A stretch of 54,814 bases of DNA from a virus, in IMG/VR virus record IMGVR_UViG_3300033146_000595, positions 1 to 54,814 of that record; one strand, written 5' to 3'. How positions within the stretch are numbered: position 1 is the stretch's first letter; each line of letters begins with the position of its first letter. Under the pieces are notes generated by a model. It saw only the letters and a list, made by a program, of their open reading frames with translations, was not told the DNA's origin and did not search any database. Made by a program: the position numbers and the translations under genes. Shown one piece after another: positions 81 through 53,936 of the stretch.

Positions 81-638
81 ATGACAGAATTTTGGGCATG
101 GTTCCTTTATATTGGTGGTGGATTAATATTCACCGTTAGTGTTTTGGACTCATTAATTAGATTTATTAAATGGTATAAAACAGGTAGGGCTTCGGCAGGT
201 AAACAAATTGATAAGCATATCAATGATATTATCGCTGAGGATAGAAAAACAAATTGCCCCTATCTACATGGGTATGAGCGAGATGTTTTAGCGAGAAATA
301 GAGAAAATGATTTATTAAAAGAATTCATACTCAAGGAGTTAACGCCTATAAAAGAAGGTTTAGAAGAGGTTCGGGAGTGGAACAAAAAAATGCATCATTC
401 CATAATGGACGATTTAAAAGTTAATCTTAGATCTATATATGTGCGATTTGAAAGAAAAGGGTCTATGACTAAGAACGATCAGACTAACTGGGATAAGTAC
501 TACTCCAACTACAAAGATCTTGGCGGTAATAGCGACATTAAGAGAATGGATGATATTATTCAAAAGGCAAGATTGGAGACAACGTTGGGGAAGGCACGAA
601 AAATGAAGGAGGAGAAAGAATCAAATGAAGGTAAATAG
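81..638 (+). CDS. Membrane-anchored coiled-coil protein, lysis region
   Basis: A 185-residue protein with one N-terminal membrane span (about residues 5-28), then a long charged helical region. Near the C-terminus is a YKDLGGNSDI-like segment that I associate, from memory, with small phage membrane proteins near holins in Bacillota phages. The SD is AGAAGGAA before the ATG. It overlaps the holin gene by 14 bases, so the two are probably translated together. A role in lysis or membrane association is inferred from the neighbour; there is no enzymatic motif. Confidence 0.6.
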   Translation: MTEFWAWFLYIGGGLIFTVSVLDSLIRFIKWYKTGRASAGKQIDKHINDIIAEDRKTNCPYLHGYERDVLARNRENDLLKEFILKELTPIKEGLEEVREWNKKMHHSIMDDLKVNLRSIYVRFERKGSMTKNDQTNWDKYYSNYKDLGGNSDIKRMDDIIQKARLETTLGKARKMKEEKESNEGK

Positions 639-1035
639 AATGATGATACAGAGAGTTATAGCGGCATTGATATTCTTAATAGGATTTGTGTTTGCTATAC
701 TAAGTATGTTTGGGGTACAGGTTACCGTTAACCAAGCGGACATTAACAATGTTATATTTGGACTAGGGTCTGTTATAGCAGCTCTTATCGAGTTTGGACC
801 GTTATTATACGGCCTAGTTAAAGATAAGAATATTAGGGAACTATTATCTATCGTTAATGATGTAGTGTACGCGGTGGAAAAATCAAAAGGTCTTTCTGGA
901 CCAGAGAAGAAACAAAAAGCATTAGAAGCAATAACTACAATATGTGAAGAGCGAAACATTATATTTGACGCCGTACAGGTAGAGCAAATGATCGAATCTG
1001 TTATCGCTATATACAATACTGTAGTAAAAAAATAA
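625..1035 (+). CDS. LLH-type phage holin
   Basis: A 136-residue protein with two hydrophobic segments (about residues 8-30 and 42-62) and a charged C-terminal helix region (VVYAVEKSKGLSGPEKKQKA, then a helix ending IESVIAIYN). This layout resembles the LL-H holin family, which forms inner-membrane lesions that release endolysin at the end of infection. The GGAGG at 607-611 lies a little far from the ATG at 625; an in-frame ATG at 640 is an alternative. No endolysin is visible, so it presumably lies upstream, outside the window. Confidence 0.7.
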   Translation: MKVNRMMIQRVIAALIFLIGFVFAILSMFGVQVTVNQADINNVIFGLGSVIAALIEFGPLLYGLVKDKNIRELLSIVNDVVYAVEKSKGLSGPEKKQKALEAITTICEERNIIFDAVQVEQMIESVIAIYNTVVKK

Positions 1036-5818: not shown

Positions 5819-5822
5819 AAGT

Positions 5823-8674: not shown

Positions 8675-8698
8675 TTTATTAGATAACTGGGCCCGGAG

Positions 8699-8738: not shown

Positions 8739-8768
8739 CAACTTAAAAAATACTGAAAAGGAGTAAGT

Positions 8769-9383: not shown

Positions 9384-9394
9384 TAGGAGGATAC

Positions 9395-10384: not shown

Positions 10385-11049
10385 TGAAAAAGTTATTGAT
10401 ATTCATAGTAGTAGCCATTGGTGGTGGAGTCGGTTATCAAATCGGCTTTACGCTTACCAAGAAGAAGTATGAGGGGTTAGCGGACGAGGAAGTTAAGTCC
10501 GTTAAGGAAAAATTAATAAAGCATTATGAAGATAAAAAGATACATGAGAAAAAGACATCGCCAACGGGAGAAAAAGAAGTAGAGGATAAAACACCTGTTA
10601 AAAAGAAGGTTGTTGCCAGGAGAAAAAATGAACCGATCGATAGTAAGGTTCGACCAACAAAGGGCGAGGGCACTGATTATTCAAAACGATATAGATCTGA
10701 GTCTGACCCAGAACGAATCCCTGGAGATCCAAGTGAGACGATGGTCAAACATTTAAAAGAGGAAGAAATAGATACCACTAAACCATACGTCATCACCTCA
10801 GATGTTTTTAGTGAAAGTGAATTTCAATGCGTTCAGTTATTTTATTGCGCAGATAAAGTATTAACTGACGATGATTATAATCAAATAAGTAATATAGGGA
10901 TTGTTGGTGGTCATCCTAACCTAGAACAAATGGGTAAATACGACGCTGATTGCTTGTACGTTCGTGATGAAAAGAAAGGCATTGATTACGAAATTTTACT
11001 AGAAGAACGAACTTTTAGTAAACTGAAGCCATTGGGTATAGTCGAATAA
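10384..11049 (+). CDS. N-anchored phage protein of DUF6353 cluster, 221 aa
   Basis: An N-terminal membrane span (about residues 3-20), a Lys/Glu-rich linker with low complexity, then a C-terminal domain opening KPYVITSDVFSESEFQ and containing YYCADKVL-like and CDYEILL-like elements (here LFYCADKVLTDDD and DYEILLEER). I recall the same N-anchor plus KPYVIT domain beside DUF6353 genes in other phages. Role unknown. Confidence 0.65.
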   Translation: MKKLLIFIVVAIGGGVGYQIGFTLTKKKYEGLADEEVKSVKEKLIKHYEDKKIHEKKTSPTGEKEVEDKTPVKKKVVARRKNEPIDSKVRPTKGEGTDYSKRYRSESDPERIPGDPSETMVKHLKEEEIDTTKPYVITSDVFSESEFQCVQLFYCADKVLTDDDYNQISNIGIVGGHPNLEQMGKYDADCLYVRDEKKGIDYEILLEERTFSKLKPLGIVE

Positions 11050-11053
11050 CCTG

Positions 11054-11617
11054 ATGATTGAGTTACAAGAATTATATTCTGATTGGATGCGCAAATTTGT
11101 ATTTAAGAACGCACGAGAAAGAGAACAATATGGTTATCTTTTGGATGCGTTACACGCGTCCATGTTTTATTTCTCTATCCCCATGGATGAAAATCGTATG
11201 AGGGATGGCATTGATTTACGATATCGTTTCGCTTATGAAAACGGTTACGATAACCATGAAGTTGAAAATGCTCTTAATGTTACCAGTAGTTGTAGCATGC
11301 TTGAGATGATGATTGCTCTATCAATAAAGGGGGATGAACGTATACTATACGATTATGAAACCGGTGGGAGAGCCGATTATATTTTCATGACAATGTTGGA
11401 ATCACTAGAGTTTAATGATATGACCAACGATCGATTCGATCCTGGGTATGTTAATAGTAAGATAAATGGTGTGCTTAATCATGAGTATGATTACAATGGT
11501 TATGGTGGATTATTTGTTGTCAATAACCCTCGTAGAGACATGCGCGAGGTTGATATTTGGTATCAGATGAATTGGTACCTACAAACGCTGTACAATAAAA
11601 ATAAAAGGAGAATTTAG
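11054..11617 (+). CDS. Conserved phage protein of DUF6353 cluster, 187 aa
   Basis: A soluble 187-residue protein with GIDLRYRFAYENGYDN, SCSMLEMMIALSIKGDERI and GGLFVVNNPRRDMREVDIW. I recall these segments from conserved soluble proteins in the same neighbourhood of related phages. It starts four bases after the preceding stop with a weak SD. No catalytic motif is obvious. Confidence 0.6.
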   Translation: MIELQELYSDWMRKFVFKNAREREQYGYLLDALHASMFYFSIPMDENRMRDGIDLRYRFAYENGYDNHEVENALNVTSSCSMLEMMIALSIKGDERILYDYETGGRADYIFMTMLESLEFNDMTNDRFDPGYVNSKINGVLNHEYDYNGYGGLFVVNNPRRDMREVDIWYQMNWYLQTLYNKNKRRI

Positions 11618-11618
11618 A

Positions 11619-11795
11619 ATGTTTAGATTAATAGACAGACGCCCATTTATATCTGGGTTAATTATAGGATTCATTGGAACAAGAATGATTGGTAGGAAAT
11701 TACAAAAATTATTACCTAATGGAATAACAATTATTCAGATAGAACAAATCGATGAAACCCCTTCTGGAAAAGAAGAAATAAAAGAAGAAAATTAA
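11619..11795 (+). CDS. Small hypothetical protein, 58 aa
   Basis: ATG 11619 after AAAAGGAGAA opens a 58-codon frame ending at TAA 11793-11795. It has a hydrophobic segment (about residues 10-28, ending GTRMIG) and an acidic Lys/Glu tail. It sits between the DUF6353 cluster and the replication polyprotein. Confidence 0.55.
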   Translation: MFRLIDRRPFISGLIIGFIGTRMIGRKLQKLLPNGITIIQIEQIDETPSGKEEIKEEN

Positions 11796-11808
11796 GTAGG
11801 TAGCGAAT

Positions 11809-14800
11809 ATGCTTGATTTTCTGATAATTTCAACCAGAACCAGAAAAGGTGTTGTAGAAATATATCCGAAATTCAAAATTACAAGTAAAAGTAAAGATTT
11901 AATGATCCGAGGTGGTGATTTTTATGCCATATGGGTTGAACAAATTGGACTGTGGTCTACTAGCGAAGATGATGCATTAGTGTTAATCGACGGGTATTTA
12001 GATGAGTTTGCGCAAAAGAACAAACATCGTTTTGGGGAAGACAACGTGCGTATCATGTATATGTGGGACGCCGAAACCAATATGATAGATGTATGGCATA
12101 AGTATTGTCAAAAGCAATTGCGAACGAATTGGCGACAGTTAGATGAGAGATTGATATTTTTGAATCAAGCATCTACAAAAGAAGATTACGGAACAAAGAG
12201 ATTATCCTACTCGATCGACGATGAGGGTTCTAAAGATAGTTGGAACGAATTGATTTCAACATTGTATAAGGATAACGAACGTCATAAAATCGAATGGTGT
12301 ATTGGCGCTATACTTAGCGGTGAATCTAGATATATTCAGAAATTCGCCGTGTTGTATGGTCCGCCTGGTAGTGGTAAATCAACTCTTTTAAACGTTATTC
12401 AAGAGCTGTTTGACGGGTATACAAAAATGTTTGATGCGGAATCGTTAGGTTCATCAACGGATTCGTTTTCATTGGAACAATTTAAATCAAACCCGTTAGT
12501 GGCTATAAGTCATGACGGGGATTTATCGAGAATCGAAAATAATACAAAAATTAATAGTCTAGTTTCTCATGAGAAAATGGTTGTTAACGAAAAGCACAAA
12601 TCAATATATGAGATGAGATTTATTTCATTTCTATTCATGGGGACTAATCGTCCTGTAAAGATTACAAATGCTAAGTCTGGTTTACTACGTAGACTGATTG
12701 ATATTTACCCATCTGGCACTCATATACCATTGGCTAGATACAACAGACTTATTAGTCAAACCAAGTTTGAACTTGGTGCAATAGCGTTTCATTGTCTTAG
12801 TGTGTATGAAAATAATAAACATGCTTATGACGACTATCGACCAACGTTGATGATAAGTGAGTCAAACGACTTCTTTAACTTCGTATCAGATAGCTACATT
12901 ATATTTAAAAAGGACAACAGTGTAACATTAAAAACTGCTTGGGAAATGTATAAACTTTATTGCGATTCAGCTAGGGTGCCATATCCAATGTCAATGAGAG
13001 TATTCAAAAATGAATTAAGAAACTATTTTAAAGGGTATGAAGAACGTTATAGAACTCCTAAAGGAGATTATGTACGATCTTATTACTTTGATTTCAGGAA
13101 TGATATTTTCGACATAAAGGATAAGCCAATAAAACCAAGAAAAAAGAAAAGCAAAGATACATTTGAGTTGATTAATTTTGGTAAGAACAAATCTAAATTA
13201 GATACAATATGCGAAGATTGCCCAGCACAATATGGGAGTAGATCAGGAACACCTACTAAAAAGTGGGATGACTGTGATACAACGTTGAAAGACCTGGATA
13301 CTGGAAGACTGCATTACATTAGAGTTCCAGACAACCATATAGTTATTGATTTTGATATTCAGGATGAACATGGTGATAAAGATTTCAAAAAGAATTTAGA
13401 AGAGGCTAGTAAATGGCCTAAGACATACTCGGAAGTTAGTAAATCTGGTGGTGGTATACATCTTCATTATATTTATGATGGTGACCCAACCAAACTAAGT
13501 AGAGTGTATGCGGATAATATTGAAGTGAAAGTGTTCACAGGGAATAGTTCTCTTAGAAGACAAGTAACAAAATGTAATACGGAAGACATTAGCAAAATTA
13601 ATTCAGGTTTACCGTTAAGGGAGGTTGGTCGAGTGATAAACTTTGAAAGTGTTAAAAGTGAGAAAGCAATACGCTCACTAATTAGAAATAATCTCAACAA
13701 GCAGTATCACTCAGGAACAAAACCATCTATCGACTTTATATTTAAAATATTAGAAGATGCGTATAAGAGTGGACTTAAATATGATGTGAACGATTTACAT
13801 GGTATAGTATTGGCCTTTGCCGCGAGTAGCTCGAACCAAGCCGATTATTGTATAAAGTTGGTTCCGAAAATGAAATTTAAATCGAGTGAAGCTTCAGATA
13901 ATTTAGCGAACGAGGATAAACCAATAGCATTTTATGATGTAGAAGTATTCCCCAACTTGTTTATTGTTAACTGGAAGTTGCAGGGTGTAGGAAGACCAAT
14001 GAATAGGTTGATTAATCCTAACCCACATGAGATAGAGATGCTTCTTAAATACAGACTCGTTGGCTTCAATTGTAGACGTTATGATAACCATATATTATAT
14101 GGGGCATTGATTGGATATTCTAACATTAAGATTTATGAACTTAGTCAAAAGATTATTCATGGTAAGAAAGCAATGTTCAATGAAGCATGGAACATAAGTT
14201 ATACAGACGTGTATGATTATTCAAGAGAAAAAATGTCATTGAAGAAATGGCAAATTAAATTAAGAATCAAACATAAAGAACTTGGTTTACCTTGGGATCA
14301 ACCTGTTCCAGAAGAGAAATGGATCGAGGTCGCCGAGTATTGTGACAACGATGTTATAGCCACAGAAGCAGTGTTCGATTATACTGCTGGTGATTTCAGA
14401 GCTAGACAGATGCTTGTTGCGATGACGAAGGCATTACGAGGTATAAATGTTTGCGTAAACGATACAACTAATAGTATCACTACTAAAATGATATTTGGTA
14501 ATGATAGGAAACCACAATTAAATTATGTGGACTTATCTAAGGAATTTCCTGGGTATGAATTCGTTAAGACTTGGAATGACAAGACTCAGCGTTATGACAA
14601 GTTTAATATGTATCGTGGAGTAGACCTTAAGTTTGGAGGATATGTATACGCCGAACCAGGTATGTATACGGATGTCGGTTTAATGGACGTCACAAGTATG
14701 CATCCTAATTCAGCTATCATAATGAACTATTTTGGTAAGTATACATCCATCTTTGAATCTATAGTAAAAGCCAGAGTTTATATTAAGGATGGTAATTTGG

Positions 14801-15660
14801 AAATGGCGAAGGAATTATTTAATGGTGTCCTGAAACCATTCTTAGACGATCCATCAATGTCGGATGATACAGCGAACGCGCTTAAGATCGCTATTAATTC
14901 CGTATATGGATTAACATCAGCAAGATTTAATAACCCATTTAAAGACCCACAAAACGAAAATAACATTGTTGCATTGCGTGGAGCGTTGTTTATGAAAACC
15001 TTACAAGATGCATTGGTTGATATGGGGGTTCAAGTAATACACATTAAAACGGACTCGGTTAAGATTCCTAATATTACGCCTGAAATCGTAGAGTTCTGTC
15101 ACAAGTTTGCCGCCAAGTACAAGTATGAATTTAATCATGAGGCAACGTACGATCGCATATGCTTGGTTAACGACGCGGTTTATATTGCTAAGTTAGATAA
15201 ACATGGTATACGAAACAAAGGTGGAAAAAGGGCAAATGAATGGACTGCGACTGGTACACAGTTCAAAGTTCCGTACGTATTCAAAACGTTATTCAGTCAT
15301 GAGAAAGTATTATTGGATGATTTATCTGAGGTTAAACAAGTTAAATCCGCTATTTACTTGAATATGAACGAAAAAGACGGAGTGGAAAACCTACAATTCA
15401 TCGGACGTGTGGGTAATTTTAGCCCTGTTCTTCCGGGTAAAGGCGGTGGTATGTTAGTTAAGCCTGTTAAGAAAAAGGATGAGACGGTAGCGTACGACGC
15501 TGTAACCGGAACTAAAGGATTTAGATGGTTAGAAGCAGAGATGATTCAAGAATTAGATATGAGAGATGCAATTGATATTTCCTATTATACTAGAATGGTT
15601 GATGTAGCGGTTACTTCCATTAGTAAGTTTGGAGATTTCGAATGGTTTACAAGTGATTAA
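11809..15660 (+). CDS. Helicase-primase-family B DNA polymerase fusion
   Basis: A 1283-residue replication protein with three apparent modules. First, a D5/SF3-like helicase: Walker A GPPGSGKS near residue 184, a SHDGD segment, sensor FMGTNR and arginine-finger-like GLLRRL. Second, an archaeo-eukaryotic-type primase: DFD near residues 514-516, GGGIHLHY near 548, and an EVKVF third strand. Third, a family B polymerase: exonuclease DVE near 708, GFNCRRYDN and YCDNDV; motif A DVTSMHPNS near 960; motif B KIAINSVYG near 1026; motif C IKTDSVK near 1080. Motif C has Lys where DTD is usual but keeps the second Asp. No internal stop or good internal SD was seen. Likely the main replicase. Boundaries are by eye. 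Confidence 0.85.
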   Translation: MLDFLIISTRTRKGVVEIYPKFKITSKSKDLMIRGGDFYAIWVEQIGLWSTSEDDALVLIDGYLDEFAQKNKHRFGEDNVRIMYMWDAETNMIDVWHKYCQKQLRTNWRQLDERLIFLNQASTKEDYGTKRLSYSIDDEGSKDSWNELISTLYKDNERHKIEWCIGAILSGESRYIQKFAVLYGPPGSGKSTLLNVIQELFDGYTKMFDAESLGSSTDSFSLEQFKSNPLVAISHDGDLSRIENNTKINSLVSHEKMVVNEKHKSIYEMRFISFLFMGTNRPVKITNAKSGLLRRLIDIYPSGTHIPLARYNRLISQTKFELGAIAFHCLSVYENNKHAYDDYRPTLMISESNDFFNFVSDSYIIFKKDNSVTLKTAWEMYKLYCDSARVPYPMSMRVFKNELRNYFKGYEERYRTPKGDYVRSYYFDFRNDIFDIKDKPIKPRKKKSKDTFELINFGKNKSKLDTICEDCPAQYGSRSGTPTKKWDDCDTTLKDLDTGRLHYIRVPDNHIVIDFDIQDEHGDKDFKKNLEEASKWPKTYSEVSKSGGGIHLHYIYDGDPTKLSRVYADNIEVKVFTGNSSLRRQVTKCNTEDISKINSGLPLREVGRVINFESVKSEKAIRSLIRNNLNKQYHSGTKPSIDFIFKILEDAYKSGLKYDVNDLHGIVLAFAASSSNQADYCIKLVPKMKFKSSEASDNLANEDKPIAFYDVEVFPNLFIVNWKLQGVGRPMNRLINPNPHEIEMLLKYRLVGFNCRRYDNHILYGALIGYSNIKIYELSQKIIHGKKAMFNEAWNISYTDVYDYSREKMSLKKWQIKLRIKHKELGLPWDQPVPEEKWIEVAEYCDNDVIATEAVFDYTAGDFRARQMLVAMTKALRGINVCVNDTTNSITTKMIFGNDRKPQLNYVDLSKEFPGYEFVKTWNDKTQRYDKFNMYRGVDLKFGGYVYAEPGMYTDVGLMDVTSMHPNSAIIMNYFGKYTSIFESIVKARVYIKDGNLEMAKELFNGVLKPFLDDPSMSDDTANALKIAINSVYGLTSARFNNPFKDPQNENNIVALRGALFMKTLQDALVDMGVQVIHIKTDSVKIPNITPEIVEFCHKFAAKYKYEFNHEATYDRICLVNDAVYIAKLDKHGIRNKGGKRANEWTATGTQFKVPYVFKTLFSHEKVLLDDLSEVKQVKSAIYLNMNEKDGVENLQFIGRVGNFSPVLPGKGGGMLVKPVKKKDETVAYDAVTGTKGFRWLEAEMIQELDMRDAIDISYYTRMVDVAVTSISKFGDFEWFTSD

Positions 15661-23647: not shown

Positions 23648-24278
23648 TGAACATAAGAAATTAGAAGGACAACACGCTTTCTTAGGCGCGAGTACATACC
23701 ATTGGTTAAGATGGGATGAGGATACGCTTGAGAAAAGATACTATGGTAGATATTCAAAAACTATAGGAACGGCACTTCACGAGTTAGCGGCAGATTTAAT
23801 AAGTAACAAAATTAAATTGGCAAAGAGTGATAAGAAAATAATTATCATAACACTCACTAAACTAATGATACCAAGAGGTGCGTATGATCCAGAAGAAATA
23901 TTAAACAATCTAATGTCATTCGTTAATGATGCTATTGGATTTAGAATGGCTGCCGAGGTAATATTATTTTACTCACACAGTTGTTTTGGCACAACAGATA
24001 CTATAGTATTCGATGAATTCAATAAGATTCTAAGGATACACGATTATAAATCAGGAATCACACCATCCAAAATGGACCAGTTAATGATTTATGCTGCCCT
24101 ATTTTGTTTGGAGTATAAAAAGAATCCATTCGATTTTGAAACGGAATTACGAATATACCAAAACGGGGAAGTAATGATATTTACCCCAGAACCAACAGAG
24201 ATCGAAGGTGTAATGAATTTAATAGTTTTTAAAAATAAATCAATTTTAAAATTTTTAGAAAGGGAGTATAGAAGATGA
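23637..24278 (+). CDS. Cas4/RecB-like PD-(D/E)xK nuclease
   Basis: Start ATG 23637 is chosen because AAAGGAGAAGGAG lies just upstream; a longer frame from 23568 has no SD. The 213-residue product has Asp121 (FGTTDTIVF), Asp136-x-Lys138 (HDYKSG) and Gln148 (MDQLMIYA), the RecB/Cas4-type nuclease core, with an N-terminal helical region including a conserved-looking GTALHELA. No Fe-S cysteine cluster is visible, so it is closer to phage RecB-like exonucleases than to typical Cas4. A role in recombination or DNA degradation is inferred. Confidence 0.75.
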   Translation: MIFNEHKKLEGQHAFLGASTYHWLRWDEDTLEKRYYGRYSKTIGTALHELAADLISNKIKLAKSDKKIIIITLTKLMIPRGAYDPEEILNNLMSFVNDAIGFRMAAEVILFYSHSCFGTTDTIVFDEFNKILRIHDYKSGITPSKMDQLMIYAALFCLEYKKNPFDFETELRIYQNGEVMIFTPEPTEIEGVMNLIVFKNKSILKFLEREYRR

Positions 24279-27238
24279 GTCATGACATAAATGATTTAAC
24301 TGATGAAGAATACTTACTTCACTATGGTACTCCCAGACATTCGGGTAGATATCCTTGGGGTAGTGGTGAAGAACCATTCCAAAGAAGTGGTGATTTTTTA
24401 AGTAGAATAGACGACCTAAAAAAACAAGGTATGACCCCAACACAAATAGGCGAATCATTGGGTATTAAAACAACTCGTCTTAGAGCATTGGAGACAATAG
24501 CAAAGAATATTAGAAGAAAAGATCTATATTCCAAAGCTAAAACACTAAAGGAAGAAGGATTTAGTAATGTTCAAATTGCTGATAGACTCGGTCTTCGTGG
24601 GGAATCATCTGTTAGATCGTTATTAAACGCCGACTCATTGGCTAGGATGGCGATAGCAGATGACTTAACAAACACATTACGTGAATTAATTGACACGCGT
24701 GGTATGATTGATATTGGTGCTGGTGTACCTAGACAATTGGGTGTATCTAAAGAAAAAATGGATGTTGCCATAGAGATGTTAAAAAATGAAGGTTATGTGG
24801 TACATGGGAACAGAGTCCCACAAGTTACAAACATTGGTAAACTAACAACACTAAAAGTTATATGTCCTCCAGGCACACCATCATCCGCTATATATAATTA
24901 CGGGGATATTAAATCGGTATATGATGTGACATCATTCGATGGTGGTAAAACATTAAAACCAGCGTTTCGATATCCCGCTAGTCTAGATTCAAACAGGATA
25001 CAAATTAGATATGCAGAAGAAGGCGGTACTGAAAAAGATGGGGTTATAGAGTTAAGAAGAGGTGTGGATGATATTTCATTAGGCACATCAAACTATTCAC
25101 AGGTGCGTATATTAGTTGATGGAACACATTATTTAAAAGGTATGGCCGTTTATTCGGATAACATGCCAGATGGTGTAGATGTTATATTTAACACTAATAA
25201 AAAATCAAATGTTTCTAAAATGGACACTATGAAAAAAATAAAAGATGACCCATTGAATCCATTCGGTTCCACTATTAAAGAAAGAGGTGGACAATCAGAA
25301 TGGACTGATGAAAATGGTGTTGTGAGGTTGACCGTAATAAATAAGAGATCTGATGAAGGTGATTGGGGTAATTGGTCAAGGGAGATATCGGCTCAATTTC
25401 TATCAAAACAACCACAAAAGTTAATAGATAGACAGATTGATATTTCAATAAAAGCGAAAGTAGCCGAATTTGATGAAATTATGTCACTAACAAACCCAAC
25501 GGTCAAGAAAGCGTTATTAGAATCGTTCGCTGACGAATGTGACGCAGCCGCGGTTAGTTTGAAAGCTGCTGGATTACCAGGAGCTATGTATAAAGTTATA
25601 TTACCAGTGACATCACTAAAGGATAACGAAGTATATGCACCCCATCTAGATGATGGTTCCATGGTCGCACTAGTTAGGTATCCTCATGGTGGTACATTTG
25701 AGATACCAACACTAACGGTTAATAATAGGAACAAAGAGGCTATTAACATAATGACAAAAAACGCAACCGACGCGATAGGTATTAACGCGGTCGTAGCTGA
25801 TATTATGTCAGGAGCAGACTTTGATGGTGATACCGTAATGGTAATACCAATGAGTGATAGAATAAAAATTAAATCACAAAACCCACTAAAGGATTTAAAA
25901 GGGTTTGATACCATATTAGCATATGGACCAGATGAAACACACGTTGATTCTGATGGTAATGAGAGATACTATAGAGGTGGGAAAGAGTTTGCAATACTAA
26001 GTGAAACAAACACCCAAAATCAAATGGGTATCATATCAAATTTAATTACAGATATGACGTTACTTGGGGCTCCCAATGATGAATTAGCTAGAGCAGTTAA
26101 ACATTCAATGGTTATCATAGATGCTAATAAACATGGACTAGACTATAAGCAGTCTGAAGCAGATAATGGTATAAAGGCATTACATAAGAAGTACCAGACA
26201 CAAGTCGGTCCATCGGGTAAGATACATGGTGGAGCAGCTACATTAATATCTAAATCTAAGTCAAAAGCACCAGTTGGTGAAAGAAAGTTGGGTATGTATG
26301 TACATAAAGACACACTCAACGAACTAACACTGTTTGATGCTGATAATAAAATCTATTTAGATGAGAAGACTGGTCGTTTCTATACCGATAAAGAAAAGAG
26401 AACCATATACATTGATCGAAAGACTGGTGAGAAGCTATATACGTACACTAATCGGGAGTATATGCAGACGGCATATAAGAATGCTGCTGGAAAAACAAAA
26501 AAAGCATCGGTTATAGTTAAGGATGAGAAACTTTATTACAAAGGTGAAGATGGTACGTATAAAGAGATCACGAATGAAATAATTAAATCGATACCCGCCC
26601 TCACGTACTCAAAGAAGATGGCCGAAACCAACGATGCACACACACTATCATCAGGTACACCACAAGAAGAGGCTTATGCTGAGTATGCCAATCAACTTAA
26701 AGCACTTGGTAACCTTGCTAGACTTGAAACATTAACTATCACTAGTACACCTATGTCTAAGTCCGCTAAGGCGGCATACATAGAAGAGTATAAAACCCTT
26801 GTATTTAAGATAGATGAGGCATTACTCAATGCTCCAAGAGAAAGACAAGCACAAACAATGGCCGCATCAATTGTGCAATTGAGAAAACAAGAGAATCTTC
26901 GCATGACTCATGAGGAAGAGAGAAAGATTAGACAACAAGAGCTAAGTAGGGCCCGTATGCGTGCTGGTGCATCAAGAAAGATGATAGAAATCACACAAAA
27001 TGAATGGAATGCTATACAAGCGGGTGCTATAAGTACTCATAGATTAAAACAAATTATTGCTAATGCAAACATGGACATACTTAGACAGTTCGCAATGCCT
27101 AGAGCAAGATTAACATTGAGTCCTGCAAAACTAAGAAGAATAGAGAACATGTCGAGGTCTGGTTATACTACGGCCGAGATAGCTAAAGCATTAGGTGTAT
27201 CAGTTAGTACTGTATCTAAGACATTGAGAGGAGAATAA
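24275..27238 (+). CDS. Putative DFDGD-type RNA polymerase with HTH domains and N-terminal tag
   Basis: A 987-residue protein. The N-terminal tag is LLHYGTPRHSGRYPWGSG (about residues 14-31). Two HTH units follow (about 45-75, MTPTQIGESLGI; and 85-115, FSNVQIADRLGL) and a winged-helix-like part (about 130-185). The core contains YAPHLDDGSMVALVRYPHGG, FEIPTLTVNN and GADFDGDTVMVIP, with DFDGD at residues 515-519. DFDGD is the metal-binding signature of the RNA polymerase beta-prime double-psi barrel and of YonO-like phage polymerases. A C-terminal HTH (about 955-985, TTAEIAKALGVSVSTVSK) ends the protein. I recall similar phage proteins labelled structural. The polymerase call rests on motif and context; the second barrel was not located with confidence. 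Confidence 0.65.
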   Translation: MSHDINDLTDEEYLLHYGTPRHSGRYPWGSGEEPFQRSGDFLSRIDDLKKQGMTPTQIGESLGIKTTRLRALETIAKNIRRKDLYSKAKTLKEEGFSNVQIADRLGLRGESSVRSLLNADSLARMAIADDLTNTLRELIDTRGMIDIGAGVPRQLGVSKEKMDVAIEMLKNEGYVVHGNRVPQVTNIGKLTTLKVICPPGTPSSAIYNYGDIKSVYDVTSFDGGKTLKPAFRYPASLDSNRIQIRYAEEGGTEKDGVIELRRGVDDISLGTSNYSQVRILVDGTHYLKGMAVYSDNMPDGVDVIFNTNKKSNVSKMDTMKKIKDDPLNPFGSTIKERGGQSEWTDENGVVRLTVINKRSDEGDWGNWSREISAQFLSKQPQKLIDRQIDISIKAKVAEFDEIMSLTNPTVKKALLESFADECDAAAVSLKAAGLPGAMYKVILPVTSLKDNEVYAPHLDDGSMVALVRYPHGGTFEIPTLTVNNRNKEAINIMTKNATDAIGINAVVADIMSGADFDGDTVMVIPMSDRIKIKSQNPLKDLKGFDTILAYGPDETHVDSDGNERYYRGGKEFAILSETNTQNQMGIISNLITDMTLLGAPNDELARAVKHSMVIIDANKHGLDYKQSEADNGIKALHKKYQTQVGPSGKIHGGAATLISKSKSKAPVGERKLGMYVHKDTLNELTLFDADNKIYLDEKTGRFYTDKEKRTIYIDRKTGEKLYTYTNREYMQTAYKNAAGKTKKASVIVKDEKLYYKGEDGTYKEITNEIIKSIPALTYSKKMAETNDAHTLSSGTPQEEAYAEYANQLKALGNLARLETLTITSTPMSKSAKAAYIEEYKTLVFKIDEALLNAPRERQAQTMAASIVQLRKQENLRMTHEEERKIRQQELSRARMRAGASRKMIEITQNEWNAIQAGAISTHRLKQIIANANMDILRQFAMPRARLTLSPAKLRRIENMSRSGYTTAEIAKALGVSVSTVSKTLRGE

Positions 27239-45272: not shown

Positions 45273-46033
45273 AGTTTAATGGTGTAACCATTCTCGATAA
45301 TGATTCGACATTTACCGAACCTAAAATTGAAGGGGTTGTGATACAAACCCCTCCTCTTTATGAGTTTCCAGCAAAAAGGGTAAGTACGATTCAGATTCAG
45401 GGTCGAAATGGTGATATAATCATGGATAAAAATTCTTATGAGAATGTTTTAAGATCTTATAATATTGCATCTGTGTTTAGAGCAGGTGAAACGTTCGTAT
45501 CAAGAGCGCGTGAGCTAGTAGACTGGTTAACATCGACTAATGGATATGCCAGACTTGAAGATTCATATGAGCCTCTTTACTTTCGACTAGCGATGTATAG
45601 AGCAGGGGGGAGATTTCCAAATTACTTTGATAAAGCGACAGCTATCAAGATTGATTTTGAGTGTAAACCACAAAGATTTTTAATAACTGGAGAAACACCA
45701 GAGGACTTGGACGATGCTACATGGGTAAATATAGTAAACACTACTAATTATGTAGCGTTACCAGAGATAACTATAAATGGTGAAGATGTTAAATTAGAGT
45801 TTTCCGATACAGAAGACGGTACTATTATTTCGGACATTACTATACAAGGAGAGGTCGTTAATGGCGTGATTGATTCGGAATTACAAGACAGTTATGACGA
45901 CACGGAATACCTCAATAATAGGACAATTATGACTAATGGTTTTCCTAAACTATATCCTGGTGATAACTGGGTTAGGGTTACCTCAACAGTGTTTGCATCA
46001 GCTGTAATTAAACCTAGGACGTGGGTGTTATAA
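45260..46033 (+). CDS. Distal tail protein (Dit)
   Basis: A 257-residue protein with TPPLYEFPAKRVSTIQIQGRNG near the N-terminus and AIKIDFECKPQRFLITGE at the domain boundary, both typical of Dit. Dit forms the hexameric hub joining tube to baseplate and fibres. AGGAGA lies inside the tape measure end (13-base overlap). Confidence 0.85.
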   Translation: MGTLKFNGVTILDNDSTFTEPKIEGVVIQTPPLYEFPAKRVSTIQIQGRNGDIIMDKNSYENVLRSYNIASVFRAGETFVSRARELVDWLTSTNGYARLEDSYEPLYFRLAMYRAGGRFPNYFDKATAIKIDFECKPQRFLITGETPEDLDDATWVNIVNTTNYVALPEITINGEDVKLEFSDTEDGTIISDITIQGEVVNGVIDSELQDSYDDTEYLNNRTIMTNGFPKLYPGDNWVRVTSTVFASAVIKPRTWVL

Positions 46034-49000
46034 TGATTAGAATATATGATAGTCAAGCACGAGATTTTAGCCACAATGGATTAGGAAGTCTTGATGAGGC
46101 ATTATCCGCTGTTGTTGGTGAGGAATTAAACGGCTCTTATGAAATGGAGATGGAGTATCCCATAAGTGGACGACACTTTGATAAGATACAATTACGAAAT
46201 ATTATATTCTGTAAACCAAATCCACATAATAGCGAACAACCTTTTAGAATCTATTCGATAACCAAACCATTAAATGGTGTTGTTGTAATAAGCGCGGAAC
46301 ATATTTCCTATGACACTAGTGGGGTAATAATATTACCAAAAAGAAAAACAACAACCAACACGTATATTAGGGATGGTGTAGAACCATCACACGCTGCGGA
46401 TTGGTTGTCGTTATCAGAAGGTGGTGTCGCGTTAACACCAGATAGTGAATTGATTTACATTATAAAAACGGCGAATGATTACGAGAATCTTTTATATATA
46501 TGGGATTCAGAAGGACCATTCTACACAAGAGTCGACGACTCAGTATTACATGAAATACATTCGTATGGTGTTAAAGATCATAAGGATGATAAAGATGGGT
46601 ATTTTTTAGAAACAATATTAACCGAGATTAATAATTCCGGTGCGTTACAGTCTAGAAATTATTTCGAGTTAGAGGCCCACGAATCAAAAGAAGCTGATTT
46701 TAAAGAAGAAGGGTATTCGATACCAATGCCAATGAGTCTAAGGGCTATGCTTGGCGGTAGTGATGCGTCTCTATTAACAGTATTTGAAGGCGAGTTTATA
46801 TTTGATAAATTTCTTATCACTCTTACCGAAAAAAGAGGAATTAATAGGGGTATAACAATTCGTCATGGTAAAAACTTGACGGAAATGGAACAAGAATCGG
46901 ATGGATCAAATTTATTCACAGGAGTATTCCCATTCTATTCTAAAAATTATACGGAAACACGCACGTCGATGGATCTTATATATCAACCTTGTTATATAAG
47001 AGAGGGTGTAAATCCTTTAAGGGGTGATTGGTTATCAACTAAAACGATAGATCCGGCTAATGGGATTGGTGGGATAGCAATACCACCGGTCGTAGAGACA
47101 ATATCGGTTATAATAGGAGAGTTTAATACTGTCATTGAGAAATTAGTAGCGATGCAAATAAAAACGCCGGGTGAATATTTAGATAAAATATATGCGTATA
47201 AAGAAAGTACACTGGCTAATGATTTAGTAGTGTTGGCATACGTTAAGGAAAAAGAGACGATCATCGTTGAAACCATAATTGAAGAAGAGACGATCGAGAC
47301 GAGTGTTGAAATTCCTTTATCATTAACTTCGGACGCCGATTTATTAGTGGATATAGATCCTGACTATGGTATTATTTATCTTATTAAAACTGATACGCCG
47401 GGATTATATAACAATAAATACATATATGAAAATGTAGATGGTGTTGACAAATTTGTAAAGTATGATGATGATGGTTTTTATATCGAATGTACTGATATTA
47501 ATACATTGAATGATGAACAACAAGAAGCGTTGCCATCGATATTACCACCTTGGAAAATTAAATATAGTCCATTAACAACACCTAAATGGACTGAAGACAC
47601 TGAAGACGATGGTGGCATTAGAGTAGTAAGACCGCTGAGACCAAACATTGGGACAGTGAGCGTTGATAAGTTTGTATATTTGGATTTATTATCCCCAGAA
47701 ATATTTGTACCAGAACCAGAGTCAACTTCGATATTGGAAGATGGTATAATATACGTTAATCAAACTTTAAAAGATTTACCGGTACAACGAATATTACCAT
47801 TAGATTTAACCTCGGTGTTAGATGCGATAGGTGGATTAACACCAGAGCAGATGACACAAACACATCTGTTTAATAAGGTGGAGAAGCATATGGAGGATAA
47901 TGATTACACGAGCATAAAGGAATCTATAGATATTTCATTCCTTAAATTATCAGGGAGCCCAGAATACGAACACTTAAAAGAATTAGAGGTCGTGGAGCTT
48001 GGTGATGAGGTAACGGTTATTTATGAGAAACTTGGAGTGGATACCATACATCGTGTAATATCTACAGAGTATAATGTTTTATCTGACGAGTATACAGAGA
48101 TAGAACTTGGTGATAAGAAAGAGAAAATAACGAATACCATCGTTACCACAGGAGATAATCTATCAAGTTTGAAGAATGATGTGGATTATGCGAGTAAGGA
48201 ATACATCACAAAACTCGTTGCCGATAACGCTCAAATAATAAATGTAGAGATACAAAATGCAATGATACAGAATTTAGAAGCAGTAAGCGCCGATATTTCT
48301 GGGTCGTTGAAAGCATCTATCGCTACAATAGATGCATTAATAGCAAGGTTATTTACAACCGATTATGCGGAAGTAGCGAAAGCATTAATAGCAGGAACCG
48401 TTAGAGTAAAAGGTGATTTGACACTGGATAGTGGATCAATAACCATAAACAGAACAATAGTGGGAGCTCCAATAAACGTTTATGTGTTAGACGGAGCTGA
48501 TTTATACGGATTGAATTGGTTATCAGAAGATAATATAGATCCAATAGATGTTATGGTAATCGAAACCGGAACTGTTTTCAAGGTGGTGTCCGAGGGTTTA
48601 TGGCTTGATAAATGTTATAAATGGAATGCCATACTTGGGTATTATGTGTTAGTTAGTACGTATGTGTTTTCTGTAGATAGAGATGGTAATGTTATAGCTA
48701 ACAATTTAATAATTACCGGAGGTTCTTTGGATATAGGCGATAATTTCAGAGTTACAAACGAGGGTATTTTAACAGCAAGAGGAGTAAAAGTAATCGATGG
48801 AGAAATATCGATAACCGCGGACGGTGTAGAGAGATTCGCCGTTAGTAAAAGTGGAGGGGTTAAGGCCTCGTCAATGATCGTTGATAATTTATATGCCGAT
48901 AACATATTCCCCACCAAGGTAAAGGCGAAGGATGTTATAACCGATAGGTTATATTTGAGCGCTGATAAAAAAGTATATATGGAAAGAGTAACTGGTGATA

Positions 49001-49470
49001 ATTTCGTAGAACAGACTGTGACACTAACGGGAGATCTGTTTGGTGTTGAGTTGTTGGAGGACAATATCACTTGGCATGGTTATATGAGAGCAGAGGCGTC
49101 GGTGCCGGTGTTTGAGGATAAATTATGTGAAATCGTATTAATGTATACAAATGGGGTTGGTGATATTGACTTCATGCTTAGGTCAGTCACAATATCCAAA
49201 GGAAGTACTCTTAGTAACACAGAAGAATTTTCTATAATAGCACCTCTACCATTGGGTGGAATTGTGAGAGCAAATACAGTCCCAACGTCATATGATGAAA
49301 CAAAAATAGATGGAGAAGTCTACAGCATCATCATTAATGCGAATGGTACGGAATACGATATAATAACCGGTATAGAAGCGGCCGTAAGTCCACTCGATAT
49401 ACCAGTTCAAGAAGACGAACCAGACCTAGAAGAGTATGAAGGCAATATATGGTTTAGAGTAGAAACTTAA
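46033..49470 (+). CDS. Tail-associated protein (Tal, endopeptidase-tail type)
   Basis: Start ATG 46033, overlapping the Dit stop by one base. A 1145-residue protein. The N-terminal about 380 residues match the phage tail endopeptidase-tail family (MIRIYDSQARDF, GEELNGSYEMEMEYP, AEHISYDTSGV). A repeat-poor middle and a helical bundle (about 700-790) follow. The C-terminal part is a beta-helix-like fibre (SVDRDGNVIANNLIITGG, FRVTNEGILTARGV). It caps the tail tip; whether it keeps catalytic activity cannot be judged. Confidence 0.85.
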   Translation: MIRIYDSQARDFSHNGLGSLDEALSAVVGEELNGSYEMEMEYPISGRHFDKIQLRNIIFCKPNPHNSEQPFRIYSITKPLNGVVVISAEHISYDTSGVIILPKRKTTTNTYIRDGVEPSHAADWLSLSEGGVALTPDSELIYIIKTANDYENLLYIWDSEGPFYTRVDDSVLHEIHSYGVKDHKDDKDGYFLETILTEINNSGALQSRNYFELEAHESKEADFKEEGYSIPMPMSLRAMLGGSDASLLTVFEGEFIFDKFLITLTEKRGINRGITIRHGKNLTEMEQESDGSNLFTGVFPFYSKNYTETRTSMDLIYQPCYIREGVNPLRGDWLSTKTIDPANGIGGIAIPPVVETISVIIGEFNTVIEKLVAMQIKTPGEYLDKIYAYKESTLANDLVVLAYVKEKETIIVETIIEEETIETSVEIPLSLTSDADLLVDIDPDYGIIYLIKTDTPGLYNNKYIYENVDGVDKFVKYDDDGFYIECTDINTLNDEQQEALPSILPPWKIKYSPLTTPKWTEDTEDDGGIRVVRPLRPNIGTVSVDKFVYLDLLSPEIFVPEPESTSILEDGIIYVNQTLKDLPVQRILPLDLTSVLDAIGGLTPEQMTQTHLFNKVEKHMEDNDYTSIKESIDISFLKLSGSPEYEHLKELEVVELGDEVTVIYEKLGVDTIHRVISTEYNVLSDEYTEIELGDKKEKITNTIVTTGDNLSSLKNDVDYASKEYITKLVADNAQIINVEIQNAMIQNLEAVSADISGSLKASIATIDALIARLFTTDYAEVAKALIAGTVRVKGDLTLDSGSITINRTIVGAPINVYVLDGADLYGLNWLSEDNIDPIDVMVIETGTVFKVVSEGLWLDKCYKWNAILGYYVLVSTYVFSVDRDGNVIANNLIITGGSLDIGDNFRVTNEGILTARGVKVIDGEISITADGVERFAVSKSGGVKASSMIVDNLYADNIFPTKVKAKDVITDRLYLSADKKVYMERVTGDNFVEQTVTLTGDLFGVELLEDNITWHGYMRAEASVPVFEDKLCEIVLMYTNGVGDIDFMLRSVTISKGSTLSNTEEFSIIAPLPLGGIVRANTVPTSYDETKIDGEVYSIIINANGTEYDIITGIEAAVSPLDIPVQEDEPDLEEYEGNIWFRVET

Positions 49471-49869: not shown

Positions 49870-50808
49870 ATGGGCGACGTAAAGATTAGTCTTAGGAAGA
49901 GGGGCGTGAGCGACTTTCTAACAACTGGTGACAGATTGTTACCAGTTACCAAACCAGAATATGTTTTGGGGCTATTGGGACCTGATGGTAAATTAGCGGA
50001 TCAATACGCTCCTGCGACCGCTTTAGAAGGAGCCAATTATATTGGAATTGCCGATCTAAATGAGGTTGGGACGATATCGATCGGTGATTTATATGCTAGT
50101 GAGTTTGGTAGCACGGTGGATCCAAGCACGGCTGGTTCATATTTAAAAGTGACCTCTGCGGGTAACTTGGAAAATAATACCGATCCTGGAGACCATTCGA
50201 TATTTGGTCCTGGTGATGAAGGGGATATTACATTCCCTATACATTTAGAAGTCGGAGATTACATCATACTTAAAAGTGTAAATGCGGGTGGTGAGTGTGA
50301 GTGGGCTATTAGAAATAATAGTTACGAGATAGCCACAGTGGTTAAATATGGTGTTACCAAATTATATGCCGGGATCGATAGTGTATCTGATGTATTGGCG
50401 GCTACCGCTGGTGCTATGAAAACTACGTACGACTTGGCGAACAGTAAAGAAGATGCTATTGGAACTAAAGGTTCGGCATTTAATAAATCGTTTGGTTCAG
50501 GTGCTGGGCAAGTATCTGAGGGTAATCATCGACATGCTAGTTTCGATAGAGCGGCTGGTAATGTAGGCGGTAATGTTATATCAGACATAACAATCACCAA
50601 TGGTGTTGTAACAGCCTTATCATGGGTTAGTATAGGTAGTATAGCATTTTTAGATAATGCGCTTAGCGACATTGATGATGGGATGGTACTGATAGATGAA
50701 CAATCACTTGATGCGAAAAAACAAGGGATGGAATACTATACTACAGTATCGAATGCAGATGGTGGAAACCACAACGCCGGAGACATCGTTGCAGTATTAG
50801 AAGCGTAA
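49870..50808 (+). CDS. Tail fibre/baseplate protein A
   Basis: A 312-residue protein sharing its opening with the next gene (KISLRKRGV vs KISLRKRGA, then DTLYPVT-like) and containing GNHRHASFDRAAGNVGGN, a modular fibre repeat. The middle includes GSYLKVTSAGNLEN and GDYIILKSVNAGG beta segments. It carries the first copy of a 114-base exact repeat (50532-50645). Probably a structural fibre or receptor-binding protein. Confidence 0.65.
   Translation: MGDVKISLRKRGVSDFLTTGDRLLPVTKPEYVLGLLGPDGKLADQYAPATALEGANYIGIADLNEVGTISIGDLYASEFGSTVDPSTAGSYLKVTSAGNLENNTDPGDHSIFGPGDEGDITFPIHLEVGDYIILKSVNAGGECEWAIRNNSYEIATVVKYGVTKLYAGIDSVSDVLAATAGAMKTTYDLANSKEDAIGTKGSAFNKSFGSGAGQVSEGNHRHASFDRAAGNVGGNVISDITITNGVVTALSWVSIGSIAFLDNALSDIDDGMVLIDEQSLDAKKQGMEYYTTVSNADGGNHNAGDIVAVLEA
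50532..50645 (+). repeat. 114-bp exact repeat, copy 1 (fibre module)
   Basis: Identical to 51532-51645, exactly 1000 bases apart. It encodes HASFDRAAGNVGGNVISD... and onward in both fibre genes. This is long enough for homologous recombination between them. Confidence 0.85.
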
Positions 50809-50821: not shown

Positions 50822-51652
50822 ATGAGTGTTAAAAAAATTAGTTTAAGAAAAAGAGGAGCGTCTTTTGCCGGGGGAGACACATTATATCCAGTTACAAGTT
50901 GGAATTTTTTAGTGGATAGACCGGCGTCATATAATCCAGCAGCGCATACACATGTTAAAGCCAATATAACCGATTTTCCAACATCGATGCCAGCGAGCGA
51001 TGTTTATGCATGGGCTAAAGCGGCATCAAAACCAGCGTACACGCCTGGTGAAATAGGCACCAAAACATCAGCAGAAATTACAGCAGAAATATCAGCGGCA
51101 ATAAACGCGTTAATTGGTGGGGCTCCTGGAGCTTTAAATACTTTAAACGAGTTAGCTGCTGCTATGGCGGACGATGCAGCATTCGCCGCCACTATTACAT
51201 CGGCTTTAGCCGGTAAGATGAATACATCACACCCTGCTAATAACATAACATCAACCCATTTGTATATGGCAAATGGCGATGGTTTTGTATGGGATGATAC
51301 AGGTAATATAATGTACGTTCGCAAGGATGGTACAGATTATATAATAAGAGATTCTGGGAATTTTGTGGCTGGAGTCGGAGCATCAAATTGGTGTGCGGGC
51401 AATGATAATCGATTAAGTAATGAAAGAAATGCGGCCGATGTGTCTGCATGGGCTAAAGCGGCAGTGAAGCCGAGTTATACATGGTCAGAAATAAACAGCA
51501 AACCATCGACATTTCCACCAGCAACACATCAACATGCTAGTTTCGATAGAGCGGCTGGTAATGTAGGCGGTAATGTTATATCAGACATAACAATCACCAA
51601 TGGTGTTGTAACAGCCTTATCATGGGTTAGTATAGGTAGTATAGCTTTCTAA
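50822..51652 (+). CDS. Tail fibre/baseplate protein B, 5' part
   Basis: A 276-residue protein starting like protein A, with AHTHVKANITDFP, PGALNTLNELAAAMADDAAF and NNRLSNERNAADVSAW-like repeats (here DNRLSNERNAADVSAWAKAA) that are typical of modular phage fibres. The frame stops at TAA 51650, three codons... five bases after the end of the 114-base repeat. In the +1 frame the protein would continue through the 51675 gene. Confidence 0.65.
   Translation: MSVKKISLRKRGASFAGGDTLYPVTSWNFLVDRPASYNPAAHTHVKANITDFPTSMPASDVYAWAKAASKPAYTPGEIGTKTSAEITAEISAAINALIGGAPGALNTLNELAAAMADDAAFAATITSALAGKMNTSHPANNITSTHLYMANGDGFVWDDTGNIMYVRKDGTDYIIRDSGNFVAGVGASNWCAGNDNRLSNERNAADVSAWAKAAVKPSYTWSEINSKPSTFPPATHQHASFDRAAGNVGGNVISDITITNGVVTALSWVSIGSIAF
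51532..51645 (+). repeat. 114-bp exact repeat, copy 2 (fibre module)
   Basis: Second copy of the repeat at 50532-50645. Its end coincides with the point where the host frame stops and the continuing fibre frame shifts by +1. Confidence 0.85.
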
Positions 51653-51674
51653 GAGCTCTGGATTTAACAAAGTA

Positions 51675-51950
51675 ATGGGCACAGGTGCCGGTCAAGTTGC
51701 GGAAGGTAATCACTCACATAGTTTTGATAACTATAATGGATGGGACCTACAAGCAAATGGTGGCACAGTGAATAGAATAACCTCTGGTGAGAACGTGAAC
51801 TTTGTAGAAAGTACTGGTATAGACATAGCGTTATCGGGGGGTACAATTACTATATCACAAAAAGCATCGACTAGTACTGTATTTGGTGGCCTTAAATCAA
51901 GAGTAAGTGGGACTACTTTATATTTACGTAATGATGGAAGTAATGCATAA
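51675..51950 (+). CDS. Tail fibre C-terminal fragment
   Basis: A 91-residue frame with GTGAGQVAEGNHSHSFDNYNG. In the same frame upstream of its ATG the sequence reads SKSSGFNKV, matching GSAFNKSFG before GSGAGQVSEGNHRH in protein A. This indicates it is the continuation of fibre B separated by a frameshift. No good SD precedes the ATG. Its TAA overlaps the next ATG. Confidence 0.55.
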   Translation: MGTGAGQVAEGNHSHSFDNYNGWDLQANGGTVNRITSGENVNFVESTGIDIALSGGTITISQKASTSTVFGGLKSRVSGTTLYLRNDGSNA

Positions 51951-52393
51951 TGGGTTTTAATTTCAACGGATCCGATATGGATGATATATATTTTAATGGT
52001 ACTAAAATGGAAAAAGTGTATTTCAATGGGACATTAAAATTCGAGGAACATGTTGATATAGGATGTTCCCCAAATAGCATTAGTGTTATAGAATCATCAC
52101 CGTATACTACCGCCGAGATTACTTGTGATAAGGCGGGGGATATATACGTTGAAGATAGCAATGGTCCAAACCCAGAGTACCAAATAGAATGGTATAAGAA
52201 TGGAACGGGTCAAGGATACCTAATAGCATGGAATGGTTCCTCATATGATCTCGGTCCAGATACGATAACTGTTGCTGCAGGTGATAAAATTAAATTTAGA
52301 GTCACGGTGGTTGGTGCTTTTGCCGGTTGGCGAATGAGAGATACAGACCCTAGTGGTAATATTATATTTTCGGGATACGTGGAGAAAGTTTAA
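51950..52393 (+). CDS. Tail tip protein with YFNGT repeats
   Basis: A 147-residue protein opening MGFNFNGSDMDDIYFNGT then KMEKVYFNGTLKF, a repeat typical of small phage tail-tip adaptors, followed by a beta-sandwich domain. It overlaps the previous stop. Structural role inferred. Confidence 0.6.
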   Translation: MGFNFNGSDMDDIYFNGTKMEKVYFNGTLKFEEHVDIGCSPNSISVIESSPYTTAEITCDKAGDIYVEDSNGPNPEYQIEWYKNGTGQGYLIAWNGSSYDLGPDTITVAAGDKIKFRVTVVGAFAGWRMRDTDPSGNIIFSGYVEKV

Positions 52394-52394: not shown

Positions 52395-52949
52395 ATGAGA
52401 AAAATTAAATTCACACTATTAATGTTATTGTGTAATATGGTAGCGTTTGTGCTATACAAGGAGCACTTAATCGGTTATTGGGGCATTGTCGTTATACGAG
52501 GGGAGCTCCGTGATTGGTGGACATTAATGACATATGGATTTTTTCATACTGAACTAAGACATTTAGTGCTGAATATGGCATTCATATTATTATTATCCGG
52601 AGTCTATGAGATAAAAAAAGGAATGTTAAAAACTATAATAATATACTTCACTGGTATAATATCCGGTGGTGTATTTTATATAGTATTAACGGATAGGTGG
52701 TTATTAATGACCCTCGGCGCTAGTGGCGCTTGGTATAGCATACTAGGGGGTTTATTAGCCAGCTCAAATTTATTGAGTAAAAAAGAAATATTGGCTGTGA
52801 TAATATTAACGGTGGCGTGTTTCTACGACACTTTCACAGCAACCAACATAAACGTCACAGCACATGTTACGGCTTTTATAACCGGTATATGTGTGGTGTT
52901 CGTGTTTAATGTATACGAGATAGTAAAGAATAGGAGGTGGCGCAAATGA
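52395..52949 (+). CDS. Rhomboid family intramembrane serine protease
   Basis: Start ATG 52395 with GGAGAAAG upstream. The 184-residue protein has about six membrane spans and all catalytic signatures of the rhomboid fold: FFHTELRHLVLN with His51, His56 and Asn60 (the H-x4-H-x3-N spacing of GlpG), GASGA with Ser110, and AHVTAFITG with His157. Rhomboids cut membrane proteins within or near their spans. It starts one base after the tail-tip gene and overlaps the next baseplate gene by four bases, so it belongs to the late tail operon. Its target is unknown. Confidence 0.88.
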   Translation: MRKIKFTLLMLLCNMVAFVLYKEHLIGYWGIVVIRGELRDWWTLMTYGFFHTELRHLVLNMAFILLLSGVYEIKKGMLKTIIIYFTGIISGGVFYIVLTDRWLLMTLGASGAWYSILGGLLASSNLLSKKEILAVIILTVACFYDTFTATNINVTAHVTAFITGICVVFVFNVYEIVKNRRWRK

Positions 52950-53356
52950 GCGTAGAAACTTATATACCAGGTATTGAAAAAATAGTACATACCGCACGAG
53001 TGGATTTTCTTCGTCGGGGTGCTGCAGATACGGTGTATATGGTGCAGTATGATTCGGTTATACCAGTCATAGGTGTTGAATTATATTCTAGAGGTGCCGT
53101 GTATACATTACCCTCAGATGCACTTTTGGAAGTGAAAGTTCGATGGGGTAAAAAAGATAGTAATATATTCGTTTATAAAACTCTATTGGGGTGTAATGCG
53201 GCGAGAAATATAGTGTATTTGGAAGTTGACGCCGAAATGACGGATAAGGATGGTTTTTTTAATATAGTAATAGAGATGTCTTTTGGTGGTAACAGCAAAG
53301 CTGGTACATCGCCAATTATTATAGTGATAGAACCGAATCCAATTCAGGAGGCATGA
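52946..53356 (+). CDS. Baseplate upper protein-like (BppU N-terminal) A
   Basis: Start ATG 52946 with AGGAGGT. A 136-residue domain: VQYDSVIPVIGVELYSRG, LEVKVRWGKKDSN and a beta-rich end with IIVIEPNPIQ. This is the BppU N-terminal fold that attaches receptor-binding proteins to the baseplate. Here it is a stand-alone domain without a fibre extension. Confidence 0.75.
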   Translation: MSVETYIPGIEKIVHTARVDFLRRGAADTVYMVQYDSVIPVIGVELYSRGAVYTLPSDALLEVKVRWGKKDSNIFVYKTLLGCNAARNIVYLEVDAEMTDKDGFFNIVIEMSFGGNSKAGTSPIIIVIEPNPIQEA

Positions 53357-53360: not shown

Positions 53361-53936
53361 ATGATAACGTTATATAATCCAGGTGATCTTAAAATAGTAC
53401 ACGTAACAAGTGTTGATTTTATAAAAAGACCACACAAAAAACCAGTACACATAGTTCAATATGATAAGACAATTCCAATCATGAAGGTTAAGTTATATTC
53501 GAACGATATAGAATACGCATTACCAGAGGATATGGATGTGAGGGTTCGATGGGGTAAAGAAGATAATACATTTGTATACAAAGATATTCTAGGGTGTGAT
53601 GACGAGCGTACTAGTATCTATTTTGAAATAGATGAACAAATGTCATATTACGCCGGAATAGTATATCCTATTATCGAATTGAAATTCATTGCCGATGACC
53701 AAGAACATAGGGCTGGGTCAGCGCAAATACCAGTCGTTATAGATCCGAATCCCATATTAGACTCGGATGTAGAATCACAGTCCCAATATTTCGATACATT
53801 ATACATATTAACTAAAGCTAAAATCGAAGCTGAATTAACGGGTGAAATCGATACTCATACACACGCTAGTGATAACACTTGGCGTGGTATAGTGGATGAT
53901 TTAACTAGTTTTAAAAGGATTAATAGATACGATTAA
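53361..53936 (+). CDS. Baseplate upper protein-like (BppU) B, frame-shifted
   Basis: A 191-residue paralogue of the previous protein (VQYDKTIPIMKVKLYS, VRVRWGKEDN, IDPNPILDS), followed by ILTKAKIEAELTG and THTHASD. It ends with an atypical RINRYD. The +1 frame from 53917 gives GLIDTINALLLSDESTLDSL and on to TAG 54115, a typical fibre continuation, so the natural product probably reaches about 251 residues. The break is at TTTTAAAA (53909-53916). Confidence 0.7.
   Translation: MITLYNPGDLKIVHVTSVDFIKRPHKKPVHIVQYDKTIPIMKVKLYSNDIEYALPEDMDVRVRWGKEDNTFVYKDILGCDDERTSIYFEIDEQMSYYAGIVYPIIELKFIADDQEHRAGSAQIPVVIDPNPILDSDVESQSQYFDTLYILTKAKIEAELTGEIDTHTHASDNTWRGIVDDLTSFKRINRYD

Follow-up and report, generated by a model that had tools for sequence, protein, structure and literature searches.

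Rhomboids are intramembrane serine proteases whose substrates are single-pass membrane proteins, cleaved close to the outer face. The bacterial enzymes of the GlpG type (PF01694; MEROPS S54) have a six-helix core that carries the motifs H-x4-H-x3-N and GxSG, a His in the sixth transmembrane helix (TM6) and a Tyr at Ser+4; the sequences AHxxGxxxG in TM6 and WR in L1 are common, not universal, among rhomboids. To our knowledge, the substrates of bacterial rhomboids are for the most part unknown.

Phage-encoded rhomboids have precedents. In the Stenotrophomonas phages DLP5 and DLP3 (Delepquintavirus) a rhomboid was published as a putative moron (PMC5834331, PMC7326821), and that of DLP5 keeps company with the surface-modifying morons PIG-L deacetylase, WcaG and WecE. 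Two phage genomes of 630-640 kb (LR745206, LR756502) also encode rhomboids, and when IMG/VR was scanned with a strict DNA motif, 39 of the 46 stretches returned proved to be true rhomboids (39 viral contigs, 18 clusters), many of them neighbors of topoisomerase and HAD-phosphatase genes in jumbo phages. The initial annotation of the locus described here regarded rhomboids as unusual in phages; they are indeed uncommon but not unknown, as shown by the published DLP3 and DLP5 genes, the database phage rhomboids and the 39 viral contigs. In the literature searched, no report on the function of any phage rhomboid was found.

This article describes a rhomboid gene in a gut-type tailed phage, represented by a 54.8-kb IMG/VR contig (the window, that is, the whole stretch of 54,814 nucleotides that was analyzed). 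The gene (52395..52949, + strand) is complete, with an ATG at 52395 and a TGA at 52947-52949, and its product of 184 aa is a rhomboid intramembrane serine protease according to Pfam, the match to GlpG, alignments and an AF2 model. It matched PF01694 with E=2e-16 and 60.9 bits, well above the family cut-off of 22.6 bits, the unnamed phrog_16931 with E=3e-7 and E. coli GlpG, by sequence, with E=0.0014. The segments H51-x4-H56-x3-N60, G108-A-S110-G-A and A-H157...G164 line up with cellular and viral rhomboids, and Ser110, His157, H51, H56 and N60 are invariant columns in alignments of 10 and 25 rows that took in 24 viral and several cellular rhomboids. The aligned catalytic set (H51/H56/N60/S110/Y114/H157) thus comprises the catalytic pair Ser110/His157, the oxyanion residues His56/Asn60 and Tyr114. 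Following the known GlpG numbering and the alignment, H51, H56, N60, G108, S110 and H157 are the counterparts of GlpG H145, H150, N154, G199, S201 and H254, and Y114 matches GlpG Y205 in position.

The protein consists of six membrane helices (predicted at residues 5-21, 54-75, 77-98, 109-122, 129-148 and 154-183) without a soluble domain. An AF2 model based on an alignment of rhomboid homologues (24 viral rhomboids) had six long helices with a pLDDT of 84.2 and a pTM of 0.80, in which Ser110 opens the fourth helix and His157 lies within the sixth; AF2 run on the single sequence reached a pLDDT of only 43. The alignment-based model matched GlpG in Foldseek (E 6e-7, TM 0.76) and in VIA-align (Z 22.2, 169 residues, 2.4 A), and its best viral structural match was the 'Rhomboid family' protein A0A8S5Q3G3 (BFVD) of Siphoviridae sp. 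ctLqe90 (TM 0.79, 25% identity). The rhomboid identity, the GlpG-like motif spacing and the intact Ser110/His157 pair claimed by the initial annotation were therefore borne out.

The window protein differs from GlpG-type rhomboids, with which it shares only about 20-30% identity, in the lack of an N-terminal cytoplasmic domain, in its location in a phage operon and in two replacements: Ala160 takes the place of the first Gly of the TM6 motif, which becomes AHxxAxxxG, and WR in L1 reads WT, with Thr43 for Arg. These replacements make it a slightly divergent rhomboid, and Ala160 and the absent L1 Arg could lower its activity; as judged from the conserved residues and the modelled fold, it is probably an active protease.

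The gene lies in a tail region encoded on the + strand. Upstream are a tail-associated (prophage endopeptidase tail) protein of 1149 aa (46021..49470; PF06605), two tail-fiber genes (49870-50808 and 50822-51652; PF03406 and tail fiber PHROGs) and a small tail-region protein of 147 aa (51950..52393; weak match to phrog_11065, E=0.0017), the stop of which, at 52393, is 1 base ahead of the rhomboid start. A Shine-Dalgarno-like GGAG (52381..52384), 10 bases before the rhomboid ATG, falls within the end of this upstream gene. Downstream follow two BppU-N-like baseplate proteins, of 136 aa (52946..53356; homologue in L002) and 191 aa (53361..53936), tandem paralogues with 44% identity to each other, the second being 45% identical to a PF10651 (BppU_N)-positive protein of the related phage L243. 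The start of the first baseplate gene in the ORF list is a GTG at 52937; the ATG at 52946 is the better start and lies in an ATGA overlap, inside the rhomboid TGA, with its Shine-Dalgarno AGGAGG (52932..52937) in the closing codons of the rhomboid ORF. The proposed coupling by overlap to baseplate genes was in this way corroborated. As to a promoter of its own, a search of the stretch gave nothing above chance (14 promoter-like sites for 22 expected, at or below chance). The G+C content of the gene resembles that of its neighbors, with a slightly high third-position G+C (0.39).

The window opens with a lysis region (81..1035, + strand) that encodes a 185-aa single-TM protein (81-638) and an LL-H-type holin (625-1035). 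In the sister phage IMGVR_UViG_3300027985_000657 the corresponding holin genes come directly after the tail region, which indicates that the two ends of the window join and are an arbitrary cut, so that the rhomboid has the tail-associated protein on one side and the lysis genes on the other. The gene junctions, the lack of excess promoter-like sites and the neighbor-like G+C suggest late co-expression. The rhomboid is an integral gene of the late operon, and its co-translation with tail and baseplate genes is supported by the junctions on both sides. Stray host DNA or an assembly chimera was ruled out by the overlapping gene junctions and the phage genes on both sides.

Other features of the window were recorded. 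The consecutive tail-fiber genes contain a 128-nt direct repeat (50527-50654 and 51527-51654; 97% identical, exactly 1000 bases apart), which may reflect a recent duplication or recombination in the fiber module. In the first 12 kb (81-11800) a strong hydrophobic (TM-like) segment occurs in 19 of 30 non-overlapping + strand ORFs, compared with only 3 of 25 ORFs between 12 and 30 kb, and this membrane-rich region includes phrog_2152/DUF6353-like proteins. A fused primase/polymerase of 1283 aa (11809-15660) is shared with Actinobacteria phages, and a 987-aa protein (24275-27238) that matches phrog_4291 ('RNA-dependent RNA polymerase') is also present in Faecalibacterium phage FP_oengus.

The sister phage is colinear with the window (DNA polymerase 80%, TerL 87%) and FP_oengus is more distantly colinear (DNA polymerase 54%, TerL 70%). 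No rhomboid was found in the sister phage or in any of 50 other TerL-related virus records, many of them short. Since a recognizable tail-associated protein is present in only 3 of the 18 long records, absence at the same position is established for three relatives only. Peptide patterns detected no close relatives of the window rhomboid in viral contigs. The interval between tail and lysis genes holds an unrelated 197-aa gene in L013, and in L243 (G029) a small lipobox protein and a reverse transcriptase (RVT_1), encoded on the reverse strand (3436-3873 and 7518-8720); this arrangement in L243 is possibly a diversity-generating element. The rhomboid is an accessory gene in a variable interval, and its absence from the sister phage and from the other relatives that were checked shows that it is not essential.

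The rhomboid's structural-operon position recurs in a second, unrelated phage group, and this is the new point of the analysis. In six contigs (L227, L204, L200, L209, L229 and L238) a rhomboid, present in three variants that are 56-65% identical, is found in the capsid-tail operon, where variable fiber genes and a small TM protein flank it on one side and an SU10-type adaptor (PF24175, E=2.5e-10) on the other; the operon also contains the major head protein and, in L227, the portal. A second scan for members of this SU10-adaptor group found none further. Catalytic residues are kept in the alignment, and the pairwise dN/dS of the rhomboid, about 0.16-0.31 (dS partly saturated), is similar to or somewhat above that of the adaptor gene (0.14-0.21, likewise with partly saturated dS). 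These rhomboids resemble the window's in their position inside a fiber/structural operon, their intact catalytic residues and their match to phrog_16931, and differ in belonging to an unrelated phage type, in having the small TM protein and the SU10 adaptor as neighbors and in being only about 20% identical to it. A TM protein of 91-124 aa is always directly upstream of the rhomboid (L227 6387-6662, L204 9122-9418, L244 3625-3999) and is a candidate partner or substrate. The DLP5/DLP3 rhomboid, like the window's, is small, phage-encoded and PF01694-positive, and retains the Ser and His; in contrast, it belongs to a cluster of surface-modification morons that precedes the terminase, is 16% identical and falls on another tree branch. 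The jumbo-phage rhomboids (LR745206, LR756502 and many IMG/VR contigs) are also intact, but they lie beside topoisomerase and HAD-phosphatase rather than tail genes and form their own clade.

With regard to its origin, the best cellular matches, from 391 genomes of one related class, reached only 25-33% identity over long stretches. A tree of 93 rhomboids grouped the window protein with Gram-positive cellular rhomboids (98/94), apart from the other viral ones, on a very long branch (2.32) that makes this placement unsure. The initial annotation had allowed for a recent stray insertion of host DNA; the tight junctions, the neighbor-like composition and the low identity to the closest cellular rhomboids argue against it. 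An independent acquisition, and not a recent one, is the likeliest origin of the gene. A prophage source in related bacterial genomes was considered and discarded, as the rhomboid matches for which neighbors were read had a cellular, chromosomal context or lay in an integrative element. Candidate relatives in named phages were also rejected, since tblastn matched nothing but phage-labelled contigs of bacterial appearance, with MurG, HIT and pilus genes. Five records, MT835706 (L003), MT835924 (L004), MT835518 (L190), MT837164 (L006) and CAKLQH020000010 (L193), are phage-labelled but resemble bacterial chromosome in the region of their rhomboids.

A six-helix protein without a soluble domain needs a membrane, and a tailed phage has none, which places the site of action in the host cell. 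We propose that a minimal GlpG-type rhomboid is made late, translated in series with the fiber and baseplate genes, and would be absent from the virion, residing instead in the cytoplasmic membrane of the host, where Ser110/His157 would cleave a protein that spans the membrane once, either inside the spanning segment or immediately outside it. Taken together, these general steps (late expression, membrane location and proteolytic activity) are quite probable. The likeliest target would be a surface-exposed membrane protein of the host, such as a phage receptor or a receptor-dependent anchor; with its loss, progeny would not re-adsorb to the dying host or to debris from it, and superinfection of the cell would be barred. 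This preferred reading, receptor shedding or a superinfection block, both named already by the initial annotation, is a possible one, suggested by synthesis beside receptor-binding genes late in infection, by the probable lipoprotein that occupies the interval in one relative (L243) and by the surface-modifying enzymes that accompany the DLP5 rhomboid. T5 llp, adjoining oad, is presumably a comparable case of a receptor-blocking gene next to a receptor-binding gene. Counting against it, the neighbors in the six-contig group and in jumbo phages give no particular pointer to receptors. The explanation as a whole, from late synthesis in the host membrane to receptor editing, is put forward tentatively, with somewhat less than an even chance of being right.

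The initial annotation had favored a virion-related job such as the trimming of a tail protein. This found no support: the product is made up of six membrane helices and lacks a soluble domain, the sister phage has a tail but no such gene, and among relatives the presence of the rhomboid is not tied to that of tail genes, so a virion role is unlikely. That the enzyme would trim a structural protein with membrane segments, such as the tape measure protein with its 23 hydrophobic segments, could draw on its co-translation with baseplate genes, on the richness of the tape measure in such segments and on the rhomboid beside the adaptor in the second lineage; however, the cytosol is where tail proteins are assembled, the rhomboid showed no conserved association with any one structural gene and the same kind of tail is built by the sister phage, which makes tail maturation the least likely reading, a very improbable one. 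Cleavage of an adjoining phage membrane protein, such as the 185-aa protein or the holin, might instead trigger or tune lysis. The lysis genes come after the tail/accessory block, the single N-terminal TM of the 185-aa protein contains a Gly-rich stretch and is followed on its C-terminal side by a basic flank, a topology that rhomboids accept, and in the six-contig group the small TM protein immediately precedes the rhomboid; yet both lysis proteins are retained in the sister phage (49% and 65% identical), which has no rhomboid, and this role in lysis timing seems unlikely.

The patchy occurrence of this accessory gene in a variable interval, and the separate acquisition of rhomboids in several phage lineages, would also fit an enzyme that disables a membrane-anchored host defense protein late in infection. 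A late operon position is unusual for such genes and no link to defense was found, hence counter-defense is judged decidedly improbable. The gene may even be a passenger, a captured host rhomboid in a permissive accessory slot that brings no benefit or a weak one to host fitness, as its absence from all relatives checked and its cellular-type ancestry would allow; the retention of all catalytic residues despite very long divergence and the seamless operon junctions speak against this, and it is considered quite unlikely. Editing of a host surface protein is the reading retained here.

The window protein adds a member to a known family, and its interest lies in the tail-operon position and in the recurrence of that position in an unrelated phage group. 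That unrelated phages independently placed an intramembrane protease in a structural operon, so that host receptor or defense proteins are cut while virions are being built, is a rather doubtful generalization; if true, it would represent a phage counterpart of receptor shedding. A phage rhomboid whose time of expression is probably fixed and whose possible targets are few would offer a testable instance of intramembrane proteolysis in phage-host interaction, a case that rests on two unrelated lineages with a rhomboid inside the structural operon.
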